From: Algiphilus aromaticivorans DG1253
Lineage (GTDB): Bacteria; Pseudomonadota; Gammaproteobacteria; Nevskiales; Nevskiaceae
Length of the DNA: 64,000 nt
Assembly (NCBI RefSeq): GCF_000733765.1
Contig: NZ_JPOG01000001.1
Span: forward strand, 434,001-498,000
Direction of reading: 5' to 3'
The notes under the pieces are model-generated. The model did no database searches, was not told where the DNA came from, and worked only from the letters and a program-made list of their open reading frames with translations. Made by a program: the position numbers and the translations under genes. This document shows, in pieces, positions 27,432 through 61,633 of the stretch; the first letter of the stretch is position 1, and each line of letters opens with the position of its first letter.

Positions 27432-27606
27432 GAGGTGTCTCCCTTGCGTTGTACTGAGTAATGGCGCGATAGTAGTCGTTGAACGATCGTACGGGTAGTG
27501 TTCCCGCCGGTCCTGTATCGCGGAATGCGAGTCGCGGAAGCCCCGCCAGAGAAGGGAAATAACCTTCGGCAGGGACGATCACCCGCTTCGGGTGAGGAGG
27601 AGACAA

Positions 27607-28524
27607 ATGGATGCTGCGCCGATTCACCCCATGTCGGACTTTCCGGTCCGACAACTGAAGTTCAGTGTTGAGGCCCTGTCGCCCGACGAACTGGTGTGGA
27701 GCCGGAGCTCTCCGATCTTCTCCGTATTCCTGAATGCCTTCGGGGTGCATGTGCCGTACTTCGAGCGCTATCTGGTGCATTCCATGCGCCAGGCGCGGCC
27801 CCATATTCGGGACCCGAAGCTACAGCGCGACGTCACGGCCATCATCGGGCAGGAAGCGCATCACGCGCGCAACTTCGTTGCGTTAAATGAAATGTTCGCC
27901 AAGCGCTACCCGAAGATCGCCGACTGCGATGCCCGAGCGCGTGATTACTTTGCCGAGCGCGCCCAGAAGGACGATCTGCGCCGACTCGTGGGCTTCACGG
28001 CCGGCTACGAGACCTTCACCTTCCTCGCCGGGGCGATCGTCCTGCAGAATCACCCGCGCTGGCTGGCGGATTCGCACCCGGTCATTAATGCCATGTGGGT
28101 GTGGCACCAGGTGGAGGAGGTCGAGCACGGCGCAGTGGCGATCGACGTCTACCGGCACCTCTACGGCGAGCACGAGTGGTATCGCAAGTGGATGGTGCTG
28201 GTGGCGCTGCGGCACATCGTTGAGGAAACGGTGCGGGCCTATGTGCACATGTGCCGTGTCGAAGGCTGGATGCGCGGGCCGCTCAAGGCGGCACGCAGTC
28301 TCGGCTTTCTGGTGCGCATCCTCGCGCAGCTTCTGCGCAACGCCGCACCGGCCATGCGCCGCTCATATGATCCACGTCGGCATCCCATCGTGACCAATCG
28401 GCAAAGCCCGATCCAGATTGCCTGGCGGCGCTACGAGAAGAGCGGTGGCGATGTCCTGGAGATCGACCGGGAGAAGATGGCGCGCATTCTGCGCATGCCG
28501 GCGCCGTCCGCGCAGGCATCCTAA
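27607..28524 (+). CDS. PF10118-type metal-dependent hydrolase (paralogue 1)
   Basis: The 305-residue protein has the paired helix motifs of the PF10118 family: IIGQEAHHARNF (about 80-90) and HQVEEVEHGAVAIDVY, which offer Glu and His residues as in diiron or similar metal sites. A moderately hydrophobic helix follows. The ATG at 27607 is 4 bp after GAGGAGGAGA. A paralogue sits in the bufferin-like cluster at 57336. Family members are named predicted metal-dependent hydrolases; the reaction is not known to me. Confidence 0.82.
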   Translation: MDAAPIHPMSDFPVRQLKFSVEALSPDELVWSRSSPIFSVFLNAFGVHVPYFERYLVHSMRQARPHIRDPKLQRDVTAIIGQEAHHARNFVALNEMFAKRYPKIADCDARARDYFAERAQKDDLRRLVGFTAGYETFTFLAGAIVLQNHPRWLADSHPVINAMWVWHQVEEVEHGAVAIDVYRHLYGEHEWYRKWMVLVALRHIVEETVRAYVHMCRVEGWMRGPLKAARSLGFLVRILAQLLRNAAPAMRRSYDPRRHPIVTNRQSPIQIAWRRYEKSGGDVLEIDREKMARILRMPAPSAQAS

Positions 28525-54297: not shown

Positions 54298-55233
54298 TCA
54301 GCCCCCGGCAGCGCGCCGGAACAGCCGCCGCAGCCTGCCCGGCCCGTAGCCGTGCACGCGCTTGAAGGCCTTCCGGAAGGCGGCTTCGGTCTGGTAGCCG
54401 ACTTCCTCCATGACGCCGGCAACGCTGGCGCGCGGGTCGCGCAGCATGCGCTCGGCCTGGACCATGCGCCAGCGCGTCAGATAGTCGATGGGGGTGCTGC
54501 CGACGACCTCGTTGAAGCGCTGCGCGAAGACGCTGCGTGACATCGCGGCCTCGCTCGCCAGACGCTCCAGGGTCCAGCTCTCTGCCGGTCGCTGATGCAT
54601 GGCGTCCAGCGCTTTGCGCAGCCTGGGATCTGCCAGTGCCGCGATCAGCCCACGCTGCTCGGCGCCGGAGAAGTAGACGTGGTGGCGCACGACCATGACA
54701 AAGAGCGTGTCGGCCAGCCGGTCGAGCACGGGCGCGTGGCCCGGGTCGTGGGTTTCCACTTCGATGAGCATCAGTCGCGCCAGATGCTTGAGTCGGTCGC
54801 CGGCGTCTGCGGCGCGGATCACTACCGTCTCCGGCAGTGCATCCAGGATGGGGTTGCGGCGCCCGGAATCAAAGTCAAAGTGCCCGCAGAGCAGCGAAGT
54901 GAACACGCCATCGCCGTCCTGCGTCTGGCGCATGCCGCGGTCGTCCGGTGGCTCGTCGTTCGGCCGCAGCACGTGCCAGCTGTCGTGCGGCAGAACGATC
55001 AGGTCACCCGCATGCAGCTGTATCGGCTCACCCTGCGTCAGGTGCACCCAGCAGCTGCCGCTGCCGAGGAGGTGGAAGCCTGCGTTTCCATCACCGGCGG
55101 TGCCGAATTGATAGTCGCCGCAGACCGAGGGGTGCTCGTAAATGCCCGCGCGCAGGTTATAAGCGCGCAGGATCGTCGAGAGAAGATCCTCTGCCGGGCG
55201 ATGCGCAACAGCCGCTTGGGTGTCGTCAGCCAT
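54298..55233 (-). CDS. AraC-family transcriptional regulator with cupin sensor
   Basis: The 311-residue protein has an N-terminal cupin-type sensor (GSGSCWVHL, then GDLIVLPHDSWHVL, a possible metal site) and a C-terminal double HTH (about 210-305: MSRSVFAQRFNEVVGSTPIDYL, and GYQTEAAFRKAFKRVHG). It is divergent from the doxX gene of the bufferin-like cluster, so it may control that cluster. The ATG at 55233 follows GAGG; an ATG at 55251 is the alternative. Confidence 0.87.
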   Translation of the reverse strand: MADDTQAAVAHRPAEDLLSTILRAYNLRAGIYEHPSVCGDYQFGTAGDGNAGFHLLGSGSCWVHLTQGEPIQLHAGDLIVLPHDSWHVLRPNDEPPDDRGMRQTQDGDGVFTSLLCGHFDFDSGRRNPILDALPETVVIRAADAGDRLKHLARLMLIEVETHDPGHAPVLDRLADTLFVMVVRHHVYFSGAEQRGLIAALADPRLRKALDAMHQRPAESWTLERLASEAAMSRSVFAQRFNEVVGSTPIDYLTRWRMVQAERMLRDPRASVAGVMEEVGYQTEAAFRKAFKRVHGYGPGRLRRLFRRAAGG

Positions 55234-55390
55234 GGCGGGATATTGCCTCATCTACTGCGCGCCGAGGGCATGCGGCATGGCGCTGAGTGTCAGGGACGGA
55301 CGCGCGGACATGGATGCGAGTCGCCAGCCACTGTGCAAGGCCCGCTCGCGGCACTAAATTGCTGTGCATGCCCACAGCAAAAGCGTGCCA

Positions 55391-56005
55391 ATGACGTTAC
55401 TCCGGAAGCTGCAGTCCCTGCCGGATGCCACGCGCGGTCTCGATTTTCTCGCGCCGCTGGCGCTGCGTCTCTATCTGGCGCCGGTGTTCTGGATGGCGGG
55501 TACCAACAAGCTCGACGGCTTGTTGCCCAACGAGAATGCCGTGGCCTGGTTCGGCAACCCGGATTGGGGGCTGGGGCTTCCGGCGCCCTTCCTGATGGCC
55601 TTTCTGGCCGCCTGGACGGAGGTGCTCGGCGCGCTCGCCCTGCTCGTTGGTCTGGCGGTGCGCTGGTTCGCCATGCCGCTGATGGCGGTGATGCTGGTGG
55701 CGGCCTTCGCCGTGCACTGGGAGAACGGCTGGCAGGCCGTGGCCGATCCCGCGCTGTGTCTATTCAACTGCGAGGCCGCGCAGGAAGCGGTCACGCGTCT
55801 CGACGCAGCCAAGAGCATCCTGCGCGAGCACGGCAATTACAGCTGGCTCACTGGGCAAGGGAATTTCGTCATCAGCAATAACGGCATAGAGTGGGCGGCA
55901 ACCTACTTTGCGATGCTGCTGAGTCTCTTCTTCATGGGTGCCGGCCGCTATCTGAGTGTCGATTACTACATCCGCAAGTCCGTGGGGCACGTATCTGAGT
56001 ATTAG
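55391..56005 (+). CDS. DoxX-family membrane protein of the bufferin-like cluster
   Basis: The 204-residue protein has four to five membrane segments with the DoxX signatures LRLYLAPVFWMAGTNKL and FLMAFLAAWTEVLGALALL. The C-terminal part has NGIEWAATYFAMLLSLFFMGAG and YLSVDYYI. DoxX proteins (the D gene) accompany bufferin operons and are linked to redox or sulphur handling at the membrane. The start is uncertain: a GTG at 55364 or the ATG at 55391. The precursor gene follows after 64 bp. Confidence 0.85.
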   Translation: MTLLRKLQSLPDATRGLDFLAPLALRLYLAPVFWMAGTNKLDGLLPNENAVAWFGNPDWGLGLPAPFLMAFLAAWTEVLGALALLVGLAVRWFAMPLMAVMLVAAFAVHWENGWQAVADPALCLFNCEAAQEAVTRLDAAKSILREHGNYSWLTGQGNFVISNNGIEWAATYFAMLLSLFFMGAGRYLSVDYYIRKSVGHVSEY

Positions 56006-56069
56006 AAGCTGCTCCAGCAGACGTTTTATCGAGGCAGACCCTCGTTTCACCATCAACAGGAGCAACATC

Positions 56070-56399
56070 ATGAGCAACAAGACGCATTCCCGCCTTTCGA
56101 GCTTCGCCGCCACCGTCGGCGGTGCCGCATTCCTGGCCAGCACGGCAGCATCCGCCGGCGTGAGCTTCCAGTCCACCGAGCTCGGCAGCGGCTATCAGAA
56201 CGGCAGCGCGCCCATCGAACTCGCGGATGCCCACGGCAAGTCCGGCGAGGGCAAGTGCGGTGAAGGCAAATGCGGCGAGTCCAAGGGCCACGACAAGGGT
56301 GCCGAAGGCAAGTGCGGTGAAGGTAAGTGTGGCGAATCCAAGGGCGCCGACAAGAAGAGCGGTGAAGGCAAGTGCGGCGAGGGCAAGTGCGGCAGCTGA
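56070..56399 (+). CDS. Bufferin-like precursor with EGKCG repeats
   Basis: The 109-residue precursor has a signal peptide (about 1-29, cut after TAASA) and a mature part with three near-identical units, each holding GEGKCGEGKCG or AEGKCGEGKCG. All six Cys (63, 68, 82, 87, 102, 107) sit in EGKCG motifs. In bufferins the DUF692 enzyme converts Cys in such motifs to thiooxazole groups that bind copper. The AGGAG site is 7 bp before the ATG. The TGA overlaps the ATG of the next gene (TGATG). Confidence 0.85.
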   Translation: MSNKTHSRLSSFAATVGGAAFLASTAASAGVSFQSTELGSGYQNGSAPIELADAHGKSGEGKCGEGKCGESKGHDKGAEGKCGEGKCGESKGADKKSGEGKCGEGKCGS

Positions 56400-57256
56400 T
56401 GCCTAAGTCGTTACATCACGCCTCCGTGCAGGGCACGGGGGTAGGTCTGCGGCGGGCCCTTATGGGCCCGCTGGCAGACGCTACAACCGATGCGCCGGCC
56501 TTTCTCGAGACCGCGCCGGAAAACTGGATGGGCATCGGTGGCGCGCTGGGACGCAAGTTCCGCAGCTTTACCGAGCGCTATCCCTTCGTCACGCACGGGC
56601 TGTCGCTGGATATCGGCGGGCCGCGCGCGCTGGACGAGGGCCACGTTCGTGGCATCCGGGATTTCCTGGATACGCACGGTATCGCTGACTACAGCGAGCA
56701 TCTTTCCTATACCGGCGATCACGGTCACCTCTACGACCTGATGCCAATCCCCTTTACCGAGGAGGCCGTGGACTACGTCGCCGCACGCGTGCGGCGGGTC
56801 CAGGAGCTTCTCGACCGGCGCATCGCGCTGGAGAACGTTTCCTACTACGCCGCACCGGGCGCCGACATGGCCGAGCACGAGTTCATCACGGCCGTGCTGG
56901 AGCGCGCGGACTGCGATCTGCTGCTCGACGTCAACAATGTTTTCGTCAACAGCATCAACGCCGGCTACGACCCGGTCGCCTTCCTGGACCGCCTGCCGCT
57001 GGAGCGGGTGCGCTATCTGCACGTCGCCGGGCACTGGACGGAGGACGACAACCTGCGCATCGACACACACGGCGCGCCAGTCTGCGACGAGGTCTTCGCC
57101 CTTCTGGACGCGGTCTACGCCCGTCTCGGGCCGGTGCCGACGCTGCTGGAGCGCGACTTCAACATCCCGCCCTGGCCGGAGCTGCATGCGGAGATGATGG
57201 CCATCGAGGCCCGCCGTCGCGCGGTGCTTCCCGAAGCTGAAAAACTGGCCCGCTAG
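56399..57256 (+). CDS. DUF692 multinuclear non-haem iron oxygenase (MNIO) for precursor modification
   Basis: The 285-residue TIM-barrel enzyme has the DUF692 motifs GLRRALMGPL, LETAPENWM, THGLSLDIGG, YSEHLSYTG, IALENVSYY, LLLDVNNVFVNS, YLHVAGHW, DTHGAPVCDEVF and LLERDFNIPP, which supply the His, Asp and Glu iron ligands. It should oxidise Cys residues of the precursor to 5-thiooxazoles with O2. Its ATG overlaps the precursor's stop by one base, so translation is coupled. Confidence 0.92.
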   Translation: MPKSLHHASVQGTGVGLRRALMGPLADATTDAPAFLETAPENWMGIGGALGRKFRSFTERYPFVTHGLSLDIGGPRALDEGHVRGIRDFLDTHGIADYSEHLSYTGDHGHLYDLMPIPFTEEAVDYVAARVRRVQELLDRRIALENVSYYAAPGADMAEHEFITAVLERADCDLLLDVNNVFVNSINAGYDPVAFLDRLPLERVRYLHVAGHWTEDDNLRIDTHGAPVCDEVFALLDAVYARLGPVPTLLERDFNIPPWPELHAEMMAIEARRRAVLPEAEKLAR

Positions 57257-57335
57257 ACGCTGCCAGCGGCTTGCATTGTGCGCTGCACCACGGTACGGTG
57301 TCATCATCTGATGTCACTATCGTGTGGAGCCCATC

Positions 57336-58184
57336 ATGGCCACCAATATCATGCCCGAGCGGCGCGATCTCGATTTCTCCCTGCCGGCCGAGCGCATCTC
57401 GGACTGGAACGGCGGCAGCGTCCATCTCTCCCAGTTCATGAACACCTTGTCGCTCTTCTTCCCGGAAGGCGAGCGCATGTTCATCGAGGCCGTCCGCGCT
57501 CAGCGCGACCGCATCACCGATCCCGAGCTGCGCAAGGCCGTGACGGCCTTCATCGGCCAGGAAGCCATGCACGGGCGCGAGCACGAGGCCTACAACGAGG
57601 CGATCTTTGCCGCCGTGCCCGCAGCCCATGGCATGGAGCGTTTCGTGAGCCGCTTCCTGATGCGGCTGCGAGGCCGGGCGTCGAACACCCATCTGCTCTC
57701 GGTCACCATCGCGCTGGAGCACTTCACCGCCATCATGGCGCATGGTCTGCTGAGCGAGCCGCGCATTCTGGAGAATGCCGAGCCGCACTTTGCGGCGATC
57801 TGGAACTGGCACGCGCTGGAGGAAACCGAGCACAAGGCGGTGGCCTTCGATGTCTGGGACAGCGTCATGGGTCGCGGCCCGCGCGCCTATCTGCATCGCG
57901 CCGCCGGCATGCTGCTGGCGTCGATCCTGTTCTGGGCGCTGGTGACGGTGTTCTATGCCCGCATTCTGCGCGCCGAGGGCAAGCTGACGGACCTGCGCGG
58001 CTGGGGCCGCATGTGGCAGGTGCATTTCGGCCGCATCGGTTTCATGCGCAAGATGATCCTGCCCTGGGCCGACTACTTCCGGCCCGGCTTCCACCCCTGG
58101 GATCACGACAACAGCCACTTCCTCGAGCAGATGGAAGAATTCGTCGTCGAAGTCGAGCGGCGCAGCGAGACCGCCGCCGCCTGA
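57336..58184 (+). CDS. PF10118-type metal-dependent hydrolase inside the bufferin-like cluster (paralogue 2)
   Basis: The 282-residue protein has the PF10118 motifs FIGQEAMHGREH (72-83) and HALEETEHKAVAFDVW (162-166 carry EETEH), giving Glu and His ligands of a likely metal site, and one hydrophobic helix (about 185-205, MLLASILFWALVTVFYA). GGAG lies 6 bp before the ATG at 57336. It is not a usual bufferin gene. Its place between the MNIO and DUF2063 genes suggests a role in the same pathway or a recent insertion. Substrate unknown. Confidence 0.85.
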   Translation: MATNIMPERRDLDFSLPAERISDWNGGSVHLSQFMNTLSLFFPEGERMFIEAVRAQRDRITDPELRKAVTAFIGQEAMHGREHEAYNEAIFAAVPAAHGMERFVSRFLMRLRGRASNTHLLSVTIALEHFTAIMAHGLLSEPRILENAEPHFAAIWNWHALEETEHKAVAFDVWDSVMGRGPRAYLHRAAGMLLASILFWALVTVFYARILRAEGKLTDLRGWGRMWQVHFGRIGFMRKMILPWADYFRPGFHPWDHDNSHFLEQMEEFVVEVERRSETAAA

Positions 58185-58238
58185 GGCAAGCATCGGCCGG
58201 CGGTTCCCGCCGCCGGTCCTTCGGGGTAGGCTGAGCGG

Positions 58239-59033
58239 ATGATGGAGAGGGAGTTCCAGCATCTGCAGCATGCCTTTGCGGCGCATATCCGCGCGCCCGG
58301 CGAGCATGCGCGGCCGGAGCAGGTCGAAGAGCGCCGCATGCGCGTCTACCGCGAACTCGTGCACAGCACCGTATCCGGGCTGGTGGAGAATGCCTTCCCG
58401 GTGCTGCGAAGCATCCTGGGCGAAGAACGGTGGGAGGCGCTGATGCGTGCCTTCGTCGCGCAGCACGTGTGCAGCACCCCGCTCTTCCACGAGGTGCCCG
58501 GCGAGCTCGTCGCCTTCCTGGAGGCCGGCGAGGGCCTGCCCGCAGGCCTGCCCGATTTCACCACGGAACTGGCCCACTACGAGTGGGTGGAGCTGGCGCT
58601 GGCCGTCGATCCCGCCGAGGCCGAGCCGGCATTGGCGGATCCCAACGGCGATCTGCTTGCCGGTGTGCCGGTGCTGTCGCCGCTGGCCTGGCCGCTGGCC
58701 TACCGCTATCCCGTGCATCGCATCGCGCTCGACTTCCAGCCGGAAGCCCCGCCCGAGCAGCCGAGCTGGCTGCTGGCCCATCGCACGCGGGGCGACGAGG
58801 TGCGCTTCAATGTGCTCAACGCCGTGTCGGCGCGCCTGATCGCGCTGATCGCGACCGCCCCGGCGCCGGGGCGGTCGCTGCTGGAAGGAATCGCCACCGA
58901 GGCGGGACAGGCCGACAGCGCCCCCATTGTCGCGGAGGGCGCGAAGCAACTGCGCGCCTGGCGCGAGGCCGACATCCTGCTCGGTACGCGCCACGCCGAG
59001 CCCGAGCAGAAGATCCCCGGAGAAGATTCATGA
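58239..59033 (+). CDS. DUF2063 partner protein of the MNIO
   Basis: The 264-residue protein has an N-terminal DUF2063 domain (EREFQHLQHAFAAHIR, then RMRVYRELVHSTVSGLVENAFPVLRSILGEERW), followed by a PNGDLLAGVP segment and a C-terminal winged-helix-like part (GDEVRFNVLNAVSARLIALI). DUF2063 proteins bind the precursor and present it to the DUF692 enzyme. Start ATG 58239. The 3' end overlaps the next ATG by 4 bp. Confidence 0.88.
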   Translation: MMEREFQHLQHAFAAHIRAPGEHARPEQVEERRMRVYRELVHSTVSGLVENAFPVLRSILGEERWEALMRAFVAQHVCSTPLFHEVPGELVAFLEAGEGLPAGLPDFTTELAHYEWVELALAVDPAEAEPALADPNGDLLAGVPVLSPLAWPLAYRYPVHRIALDFQPEAPPEQPSWLLAHRTRGDEVRFNVLNAVSARLIALIATAPAPGRSLLEGIATEAGQADSAPIVAEGAKQLRAWREADILLGTRHAEPEQKIPGEDS

Positions 59034-60490
59034 AGGCGAATCGCGAGACACGTATCGGCATTCCGGGCATCGTCGCCACGGTGCTTGCCCTCGGCGTGGT
59101 TCCCGCCGCTGCATTGACGCCCTGCGGCGTGGAGGAGATCAGTTGGACCGCCCACGGCCAGAACTTCGATCCCAGCCAGACCCACGCCCCGGGCGGGCCA
59201 TCACGCCCTGTTTCGGAAGATCGCGTGGCCGTGCGCTGGTGGCCCGACAGGGGGCAGGCCGAACTGCGATGGCAGCTTGGCACGCACTATCCCTTCGCCG
59301 CGGATTTCGAGTACCTGGAGCAGCTCAGCCTCGAGGACAGCGTGGTGACCGGTGTCGACGGCTTCCGCGCCCGCGAGGACAGTCTGCCGCCGGCGCGCCG
59401 TGCGGCGCGCTTCGCCGATCTGTGGCTGCGCGCGCCGCTGCTCTGGACCGGCGAGGAAGGCGGTCGCAGTCGCGAGATCAGCCTGGCCGGCACGCGCTGG
59501 ACGCTGTCGGTGGCGCGCGATGCCGCCATGGGCGGCGACAGCGTGCCGCTGGTGGCGCGCGCCCGGGTGAGGAATCCGCCGGGCGGCACCGTGGAGCAGC
59601 GCGTGGCCTACGCCGACTGGCGCGACGTCGAGGGCCTGAGCATGCCGACGCGCGTGGAGGTCCGCCTCGACGGCAAGCTGCTGCGCCGCGAGCGGCTCGG
59701 CGACATTCGCGTGCGCCGCGCAGAGGTGGTGTCCGAGGATTGCGAACCGCCGCTGCGCCCGGAGTCGGCCGAGGCGCCTGTGTGGGTGCGCGGCCTGACG
59801 CACTGGGTGACGCGCCGGTTGGCCATGGGCGCCGGCGCCGAGGCGGATCAGACCGATAATGTCGCGTTGGAGCCGCTCGGTGAAGGAATCTTTCATGTAG
59901 TCGGCGGTAGCCACCACGCGCTGCTGATTGTCGACGAAGCGCAGCTGAGCCTGGTAGGTGCGCCGCTGCACCCGGGGCGCAGCGAGAAGCTGCTGCGCGA
60001 GCTCGGCGAGCGCTGGCCGGATCGGCCGTTGACGCGCGTCGTCGTCACGCACCATCACAACGACCACAGCGCGGGTCTGCGACCGCTGCTGGGTGAAGGC
60101 GTCACCCTCTATGTCGGCGCCGAGGCCGAAGCTTTCTTCGCCGAGGCGCTCGCTGACTTTCCCGACGATGCGGGCTTCAGCATGCAGGCGGTGGGGGCGC
60201 GTGAGCGCCTGGACGAGACGGAACGCAGCCTCACCCTGATCAACATCCCCAACGATCACGCCGCCGGTATGCTGGCCGTCCGCGTGGACGACGCCGGCCT
60301 GACCTATGTTTCGGATCTGTACTCGCCGGGGCGCGATGTGCAGAATCCGCTGCTGGCGCGACAGTTCCTGCGCGCGCTGGAGTGGCACGGACTGGCCAGC
60401 GGCACGCTGGTGGGCGCCCACGGCAGCGGCACCGAGCCCGTATCGGCGCTGGTGGAGTGGGTGAGGGCGCAGCAGGAGAGCGCCGACTAG
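59030..60490 (+). CDS. Secreted metallo-beta-lactamase-fold protein coupled to the bufferin-like genes
   Basis: The 486-residue precursor has a signal peptide (about 1-29, VLALGVVPAAALT). The first 270 residues have no family I recognise. The last 220 form an MBL fold with TDNVALEPLGEGIFHVVGG and THHHNDHSAG (His341, His343, Asp345, His346), then SDLYSP and VGAHGSGT, which finish a two-metal site. The ATG overlaps the DUF2063 stop (ATGA), so it is made together with that protein. A periplasmic hydrolase with a link to copper or the RiPP is plausible. Confidence 0.82.
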   Translation: MKANRETRIGIPGIVATVLALGVVPAAALTPCGVEEISWTAHGQNFDPSQTHAPGGPSRPVSEDRVAVRWWPDRGQAELRWQLGTHYPFAADFEYLEQLSLEDSVVTGVDGFRAREDSLPPARRAARFADLWLRAPLLWTGEEGGRSREISLAGTRWTLSVARDAAMGGDSVPLVARARVRNPPGGTVEQRVAYADWRDVEGLSMPTRVEVRLDGKLLRRERLGDIRVRRAEVVSEDCEPPLRPESAEAPVWVRGLTHWVTRRLAMGAGAEADQTDNVALEPLGEGIFHVVGGSHHALLIVDEAQLSLVGAPLHPGRSEKLLRELGERWPDRPLTRVVVTHHHNDHSAGLRPLLGEGVTLYVGAEAEAFFAEALADFPDDAGFSMQAVGARERLDETERSLTLINIPNDHAAGMLAVRVDDAGLTYVSDLYSPGRDVQNPLLARQFLRALEWHGLASGTLVGAHGSGTEPVSALVEWVRAQQESAD

Positions 60491-60592: not shown

Positions 60593-61633
60593 ATGGCCGA
60601 TTCCCAGCCGATTCACGACGCCGTGCGCGACTACTACAGCCGCGTGCTGTCCTCCTCCGCCGATCTGAAGACCAGCGCCTGCTGCACGGCCGACGCCATG
60701 CCGGGGTATCTGCGCGCGCTGCTGGCCAATGTCCACGACGAGGTCAAGGATCGTTACTACGGCTGTGGCACACCGGTGCCGCCGGCGCTGGCTGGTGCCA
60801 CCGTGCTCGATCTCGGCTGCGGCACGGGGCGCGACGTCTACATGCTCGCCCAGCTTGTCGGGCCGGAAGGGCGCGTCATCGGTGTCGACATGACCGAGGA
60901 GCAGCTGGCCGTCGCGCGCCGCCATCAGGCCTGGCATGCGGACGCGCTGGGCTACGACAGTGTCGCATTCCACTACGGCACCATCGAGGATCTGGCCGCG
61001 GCCGGCATCAAGGACGCCTAGGTGGACCTGATTGTCAGCAACTGCGTGGTGAATCTCTCACCGGACAAGCCGCGCGTGCTGGCCGAGGCCTTCCGCGTGC
61101 TCAAGCCCGGTGGCGAGCTGTATTTCTCCGATGTGTTCGCTGATCGCCGCGTGCCGGAGCATCTCGCGGCTGATCCGGTGCTGCTCGGAGAATGCCTGGG
61201 CGGGGCGCTCTACGGCGAGGACTTCCGCCGCATCATGGCCGGCATCGGCTGTGCTGACGTGCGCACCGTGTCGAGCACGCCCATCGAGCTGCACGACGAG
61301 GCCATTCACCACAAGATCGGTCACGTCGGCCTCAGCTCGCGCACCATTCGCGCCTTCAAGCTGGATCTCGAGGACCGCTGCGAGGACTACGGCCAGGTGG
61401 CCACCTACAAGGGCACCATCAGCGAAGCCCCGCACGCCTTCGTCCTCGACGACCATCACCGCCTGGAGGCGGGGCGGCCCATGCTCGTCTGCGGCAACAC
61501 CGCCGACATGCTGGCCAGGACCCGCTACGCCCCGCACTTCGAGGTAACCGGCGACAAGTCCGTGCATTTCGGGCTCTTCGACTGCGCCAGCCCGGCACCG
61601 ACAACGGCCAGCAGCGGCGCCGCCTGCTGCTAG
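60593..61633 (+). pseudogene. arsM: Arsenite S-adenosylmethionine methyltransferase, interrupted by an in-frame TAG
   Basis: The frame is ArsM-like throughout: TSACCTAD at the start, VLDLGCGTGRDVYML (SAM motif I), VIGVDMTEEQL, then after the stop VDLIVSNCVVNLSPDKP and LGECLGGALYG with the arsenic-binding Cys, and a C-terminal extension. A TAG at 61019-61021 cuts it at residue 143, exactly between the two conserved blocks; both halves remain in the same frame. An AAGGA lies 7 bp before a GTG that follows the stop, so a separate C-terminal piece could be made. GAGGA precedes the ATG at 60593. Confidence 0.88.

Follow-up and report, generated by a model that had tools for sequence, protein, structure and literature searches.

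Several recently described gene clusters encode peptides whose cysteines lie in EGKCG motifs, a branch that Antoine et al. named Buf_EGKCG/oxazolin (PMC12452194) and that Gadgil et al. placed under the captophorins (PMC13097082). In the fontiphorin cluster fonABC of Fontimonas thermophila, FonB and FonC put 5-thiooxazoles on the EGKCG cysteines, and the product binds copper (PMC13097082). Here we describe a locus of this type at positions 54298 to 60490 of a 64,000-nucleotide stretch (the window) of Algiphilus aromaticivorans DG1253. It includes genes for a PF10118 protein and for a metallo-beta-lactamase (MBL)-fold protein, which an earlier note on this DNA had proposed to be added maturation or handling enzymes. 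With a probability of roughly 80%, the locus is a captophorin operon, that is, an EGKCG copper-peptide operon of the HvfABCX/fontiphorin kind, in which the PF10118 gene is most likely a passenger and the MBL gene has no demonstrated role in the pathway. The locus can thus be placed in a class of copper-binding peptides that is large and was named only recently.

Like the window, fonABC combines a precursor with EGKCG repeats, a maturase of the multinuclear nonheme iron-dependent oxidative enzyme (MNIO) family and a DUF2063 partner, and DoxX genes and transcriptional regulators are described as frequent neighbours of the class; fontiphorin has seven 5-thiooxazoles, whereas the window precursor has six cysteines (PMC13097082). 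The hvf oxazolin operon of Haemophilus influenzae is similar in having HvfB, HvfC, HvfX and an HvfA with six cysteines in three double cassettes (three AEGKCGEGKCG motifs, with the full-length peptide preferred), but the published passages on that operon describe no PF10118 or MBL gene (PMC13419390). In the mmr clusters of Microbulbifer, an EGKCG precursor likewise stands with an MNIO and DUF2063 pair; the precursors contain five to eight cysteines across the genus, and one MmrA has three two-cysteine cassettes (PMC12538549). The Buf_EGKCG/oxazolin and bufferin families share a core ribosomally synthesized and post-translationally modified peptide (RiPP), MNIO, DUF2063 and DoxX with the window, and the two-EGKCG cassettes of the window precursor resemble the first Buf_EGKCG type. 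However, that work gives oxidored_molybd and ferric reductase genes as the accessories of EGKCG clusters, and Lactamase_B_2 genes accompany a different MNIO precursor group, CxxxxC (PMC12452194). The Pep4 cluster of the Pseudomonas fluorescens group also brings DoxX, DUF692, DUF2063 and two "hydrolase" genes together, but its precursor is of the DUF2282 type and the hydrolase types are unspecified in that account (PMC8719888). The words "hydrolase", "lactamase" and "AraC" are absent from the main text of the fonABC paper (PMC13097082), as are "lactamase", "AraC" and "DoxX" from that of the mmr paper (PMC12538549).

The earlier note had listed seven genes, six EGKCG cysteines and stop-start overlaps of 1 and 4 bp, all of which were confirmed in place. 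The genes are as follows.

54298 to 55251, minus strand: AraC-type regulator (Cupin_6 plus HTH_18 by Pfam), with Cys44, Cys67 and Cys122 kept among hvf-linked homologues

55391 to 56005, plus strand: HvfX, a DoxX-family membrane protein (NF050144, 231.6 bits, cut-off 80; scanned from 55394)

56070 to 56399, plus strand: HvfA-type precursor of 109 amino acids (NF050137, 67.2 bits, cut-off 19.5)

56399 to 57256, plus strand: HvfB, an MNIO (DUF692) maturase (NF003818, 398.6 bits, cut-off 360)

57336 to 58184, plus strand: PF10118 protein with a predicted ferritin-like diiron fold, a probable passenger (PF10118, 275.6 bits)

58242 to 59033 (alternative ATG at 58239), plus strand: HvfC/PME1, a DUF2063/NGO1945_C partner protein (NF050145, 286.3 bits, cut-off 142)

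59030 to 60490, plus strand: MBL-fold protein with an N-terminal beta domain, probably secreted (PF00753, 28.3 bits)

All six cysteines of the precursor (positions 63, 68, 82, 87, 102 and 107) lie in EGKCG, forming three EGKCGEGKCG cassettes. The precursor passes NF050137, the model of the HvfA-type precursor domain (KCGExKCG), scores 47.6 bits against the narrower HvfA equivalog NF050188 (below its cut-off of 95), and matches no Pfam family at E <= 0.001. The DUF692 protein scores 256.9 bits with the BufB model, under the cut-off of 310, and the combination of a DUF2282 precursor with a BufB maturase that marks the bufferin Buf1 was not found at the locus. The core locus is not a product of chance, since its proteins pass four curated NCBIfam cut-offs and other genomes have the core neighbourhood too. 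As judged from these models, the core (DoxX, EGKCG precursor, DUF692 and DUF2063) is of the HvfA/oxazolin EGKCG copper-peptide class (captophorins), not a DUF2282 bufferin. The earlier description of a "bufferin-type copper RiPP" is therefore upheld by the curated models and by the published accounts (PMC13097082, PMC12452194) as to the copper RiPP; the name bufferin gives way to the HvfA/oxazolin EGKCG branch.

HvfB aligned with the structure 3bww (E 8.1e-63), and HvfC matched 3dee (E 5e-9). HvfB contains the motifs RR (18-19), DVNN (177-180), DTHG (222-225) and ERDF (251-254), which we equated with FonB Arg15/Arg16 and Asp249/Phe250 and with HvfB N175, D242 and H244 by motif, not through an alignment with FonB. 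The window's genome has one PF05114 (DUF692) gene, and the NF050137 model found no second EGKCG precursor in that genome. Two relatives have a second short EGKCG-type frame past the AraC gene (at 5040 of L104, genome G059, and at 9865 of L070, genome G058).

The precursor stop and the HvfB start have one base in common (TGATG), and the DUF2063 stop and the MBL start overlap by four (ATGA). The remaining plus-strand genes are separated by 64 bases (HvfX-HvfA), 79 bases (HvfB-PF10118) and 57 bases (PF10118-HvfC). A scan of the locus for promoters and terminators gave results at chance level, and PADLOC gave zero matches.

We presume that the operon works as follows. Stress, either Cu(I) or thiol oxidants, would be read by the divergent regulator with its three cysteines. 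The precursor would be modified while its signal peptide is still attached, as suggested by HvfA of H. influenzae, and HvfC would act with the iron enzyme HvfB to convert the six EGKCG cysteines to 5-thiooxazoles. The mature product would be exported and bind copper, with a putative accessory role for HvfX. Thiooxazole formation and copper binding at this locus are extrapolated from characterised relatives, and the precursor and the MBL protein are probably secreted, as predicted from hydrophobic N-termini judged by eye.

To see how widely this arrangement occurs, we surveyed HvfB neighbourhoods in 85 genomes of the order. Some match to the HvfB model was found in 53 of them, and the cut-off was passed in 37 (the window's own included). 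The loci fetched were that of a congeneric genome (G003) and 39 others, consisting of 35 over the cut-off and four below it; other below-cut-off matches were not fetched. The class search yielded, from 232 genomes, 81 over-cut-off HvfB places besides the window's, of which 80 were fetched and one was dropped because a contig end truncated its match. The stretches taken for the class extend roughly 5 kb on each side, and some stretches of the survey are shortened by contig ends; locus L002 is G003's contig.

By our profiles, HvfC is present in all 39 order loci (excluding the window and G003), the EGKCG precursor in 29, HvfX in 19 and a divergent AraC gene in 23, and the HvfB and HvfC frames are at most 300 bases apart in 38. 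Precursor and divergent AraC occur together in 20 loci, the precursor without AraC in 9, AraC without the precursor in 3, and neither in 7. In the class, HvfC is present at 80 of the 80 loci, the precursor at 54 and HvfX at 42. By these profile matches, genomes of the order commonly show the core layout, in many cases accompanied by a divergent AraC gene.

The PF10118 and MBL genes behave differently from this core: they were found near HvfB at none of the 39 order loci and none of the 80 class loci, being confined to the window and G003, although the MBL profile was built on close sequences and remote MBL genes near hvf could escape it. The proposal that the two proteins are added maturation or handling enzymes is thus not supported. 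The earlier note had suggested a search for DUF692-PF10118-DUF2063-MBL neighbourhoods and had named confinement to this genome, together with a lack of response alongside DUF692, as evidence against its idea; what was found, two genomes of one genus, comes close to the first of these. The case for PF10118 and MBL as new maturation enzymes is thus weakened, and the regulator offers a more promising lead.

G003 is the sole other genome of the genus within the order search and carries PF10118 and MBL genes beside parts of hvf. Its locus (L066) reads HvfX-HvfA-HvfB-PF10118, followed by genes for a patatin, a phospholipase D-like protein and DUF547, a fourth same-strand open reading frame, a TonB receptor on the reverse strand, and then HvfC-MBL. 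The sequence TAATG precedes HvfB, so that a one-base stop overlap occurs there too. The hvfB-PF10118 and hvfC-MBL pairs lie 7 kb apart with the reverse-strand gene intervening; each pair is kept across both genomes of the genus, and the whole arrangement is not. Between the two pairs (L066, 9976-17093), one reading frame has a cysteine cluster, CPYRCEDC, and no Pfam match at E <= 1e-5.

The strongest alternative is that the MBL protein is a dedicated member of the pathway: as a zinc hydrolase of the periplasm, translated with HvfC, it would trim the copper-loaded peptide, release it or recycle it. We consider this improbable. The hvfC/MBL overlap in both genomes (4 bases in the window, and 26 in L066 if ATG 17879 is the start) is the chief argument and suggests a pathway role, yet it comes from a single lineage; the two genes also stay paired in L066 although hvfC has been separated from hvfB. 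The structural model of the protein has a beta domain at its N-terminus in addition to the MBL domain (predicted local distance difference test score, pLDDT, 79). The HxHxDH motif plus H, D and H of MBL-fold zinc hydrolases is present (HHHNDH intact), and all 10 aligned rows share the ligands H341, H343, D345, H346, H410, D429 and H464. A Foldseek search of the model matched VIM-type enzymes (E 1.2e-9, 17% identity), and a search of PDB sequences gave zero matches; the predicted likeness to beta-lactamases is at the level of the fold and is uninformative on the substrate.

Against such a role, the MBL gene is beside hvfC in one genus only. Some MBL match occurs in 17 of the 85 order genomes, but the only close full-length one is that of G003 (60% identity), the next best being 35% identical over about 100 residues; among 370 class genomes, the top-scoring match outside the window's genome is 27% identical. 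We also asked whether the MBL gene travels with hvf elsewhere, and rejected this: eight other homologues (15-28% identity over the alignment) are encoded at loci whose fetched stretches contain no HvfB, HvfC, HvfX, AraC or PF10118 gene. Moreover, the published reconstitution of fontiphorin maturation used FonB and FonC (PMC13097082). The MBL protein is therefore probably a passenger, perhaps a co-transcribed periplasmic hydrolase.

Slightly less credible still is a broader proposal that includes the regulator, namely, that this genus gained a periplasmic zinc hydrolase, translated with HvfC, which acts on the thiooxazole peptide in its copper-bound form, either processing or unloading it, in an operon activated by the AraC protein, whose three cysteines would form a sensing site for Cu(I) or oxidants. 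The regulatory part, which also belongs to the preferred interpretation, has evidence of its own. All 25 AraC rows taken from hvf loci (the window, G003 and 23 order loci) keep Cys44, Cys67 and Cys122. As a control, we compared Cupin_6 matches from 18 genomes, using 22 of 23 and excluding one partial match below the cut-off. The three cysteines are complete in 10 of 10 hvf-linked rows (the window's own gene among them) and in one of the 12 unlinked paralogues, L267, which groups with the hvf set; they are incomplete in the other 11. In a tree, the hvf-linked rows and L267 form one group (support 91/93, below the strict mark).

Because the three cysteines mark hvf-linked regulators and not 11 of 12 unlinked paralogues, a thiol-based sensor is plausible, and the AraC protein may detect Cu(I) or oxidants through this site. 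The earlier suggestion that the cupin AraC may sense the metal thus gains circumstantial backing from residue conservation, with the metal as ligand remaining putative. The lineage of three-cysteine AraC proteins flanking many clusters of the order may serve these clusters by sensing copper or oxidants, which gives a lead to follow. A profile built from the order set (E <= 1e-20) found no divergent AraC gene at the 80 class loci; therefore, the link belongs to this lineage and does not extend across the class as a whole. The window protein scores 135.7 bits with the RclR equivalog, against a cut-off of 400. None of the cluster papers searched names an AraC regulator in its main text, and the passages of papers that mention AraC, DUF692 and copper together draw no link among the three. 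A motif search in 15 of 21 intergenic regions (AraC/HvfX or AraC/HvfA) gave a score above those of eight resampled sets, all of which had fewer starts, but the result was rejected as an operator, as it is mostly the AraC start codon region found again.

Much less likely is the view that the PF10118 protein is an additional oxidative maturation enzyme making a second modification of the peptide. In its favor, the gene sits between hvfB and hvfC, and E46, E76xxH79, E128 and E163xxH166 are invariant in 25 of 25 alignment rows. The model is helical (pLDDT 93) and resembles the CmlI/AurF and R2-like diiron oxygenases; for this reason, the name "metal-dependent hydrolase" is probably misleading. However, Foldseek returned nothing at E <= 0.001 (best 0.017), and the best structural match has Z 12.8 (root-mean-square deviation 4.4, 236 aligned), where helical matches under about 13 may mean a common arrangement only. 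That the structural list shows no other fold families carries no information, and a PDB sequence search gave zero matches.

The distribution of PF10118 also argues against this view. The family has seven matches in the window's genome and is present in 79 of the 85 order genomes. The two genus copies are sisters in a tree (support 98/97), within a broader group of likely orthologues (54-67% identity) located apart from hvf. In two genomes (G050 and G052), the likely orthologue is about 230 kb from HvfB, and two more (G044 and G051) have one and no HvfB match. Among 11 PF10118 contexts compared, a divergent TetR-related gene occurs in eight and flavin-containing monooxygenase (FMO)-like genes in five, four of which are related at >=59% and one at about 26%; the TetR name comes from one representative and the FMO-like name from two. 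The idea that PF10118 is a conserved partner of DUF692 was rejected by the HvfB-neighbourhood survey, in which it adjoins hvf in one genus only. Because likely orthologues sit apart from hvf and occur without an HvfB match, we regard the PF10118 protein as most probably a diiron oxygenase-like protein from another pathway, a passenger beside hvfB in this genus. It would be unrelated to the peptide and share the transcript by chance, and both it and the MBL gene would have entered the neighbourhood no later than the ancestor shared by the two genomes of the genus. With seven matches in the window's genome and up to 14 in relatives, the PF10118 family shows an expansion, and a second, very distant match to the profile lies at 27499-28521 of the window.

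That the cluster is a DUF2282/Buf-type bufferin has almost nothing to recommend it beyond the core gene types and likely copper role that bufferins share (PMC12452194), for the precursor matches HvfA-type models and no Pfam family, and the BufB score is under its cut-off.

Several observations weigh against parts of the preferred interpretation, a captophorin operon with PF10118 and MBL as probable passengers. The tight spacing of the six plus-strand genes makes it likely that PF10118 and MBL are expressed together with hvf, and genes that are expressed together can also work together. Both genes lie beside hvf parts in two of two genus genomes, with their motifs intact, and accessory "hydrolase" genes are on record beside the DUF2282-type Pseudomonas cluster Pep4 (PMC8719888). 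Support for the deeper forks of the PF10118 tree is only moderate (84/82 to 87/94), and residues of HvfB and FonB are equated by motif only. For the regulator, our profile finds no divergent AraC gene at 9 of the 29 EGKCG-precursor loci of the order.

At 60593-61633 of the window, the frame of an ArsM-like arsenite methyltransferase is broken by an in-frame TAG at 61019-61021, an observation that fits decay, sequencing error or read-through.

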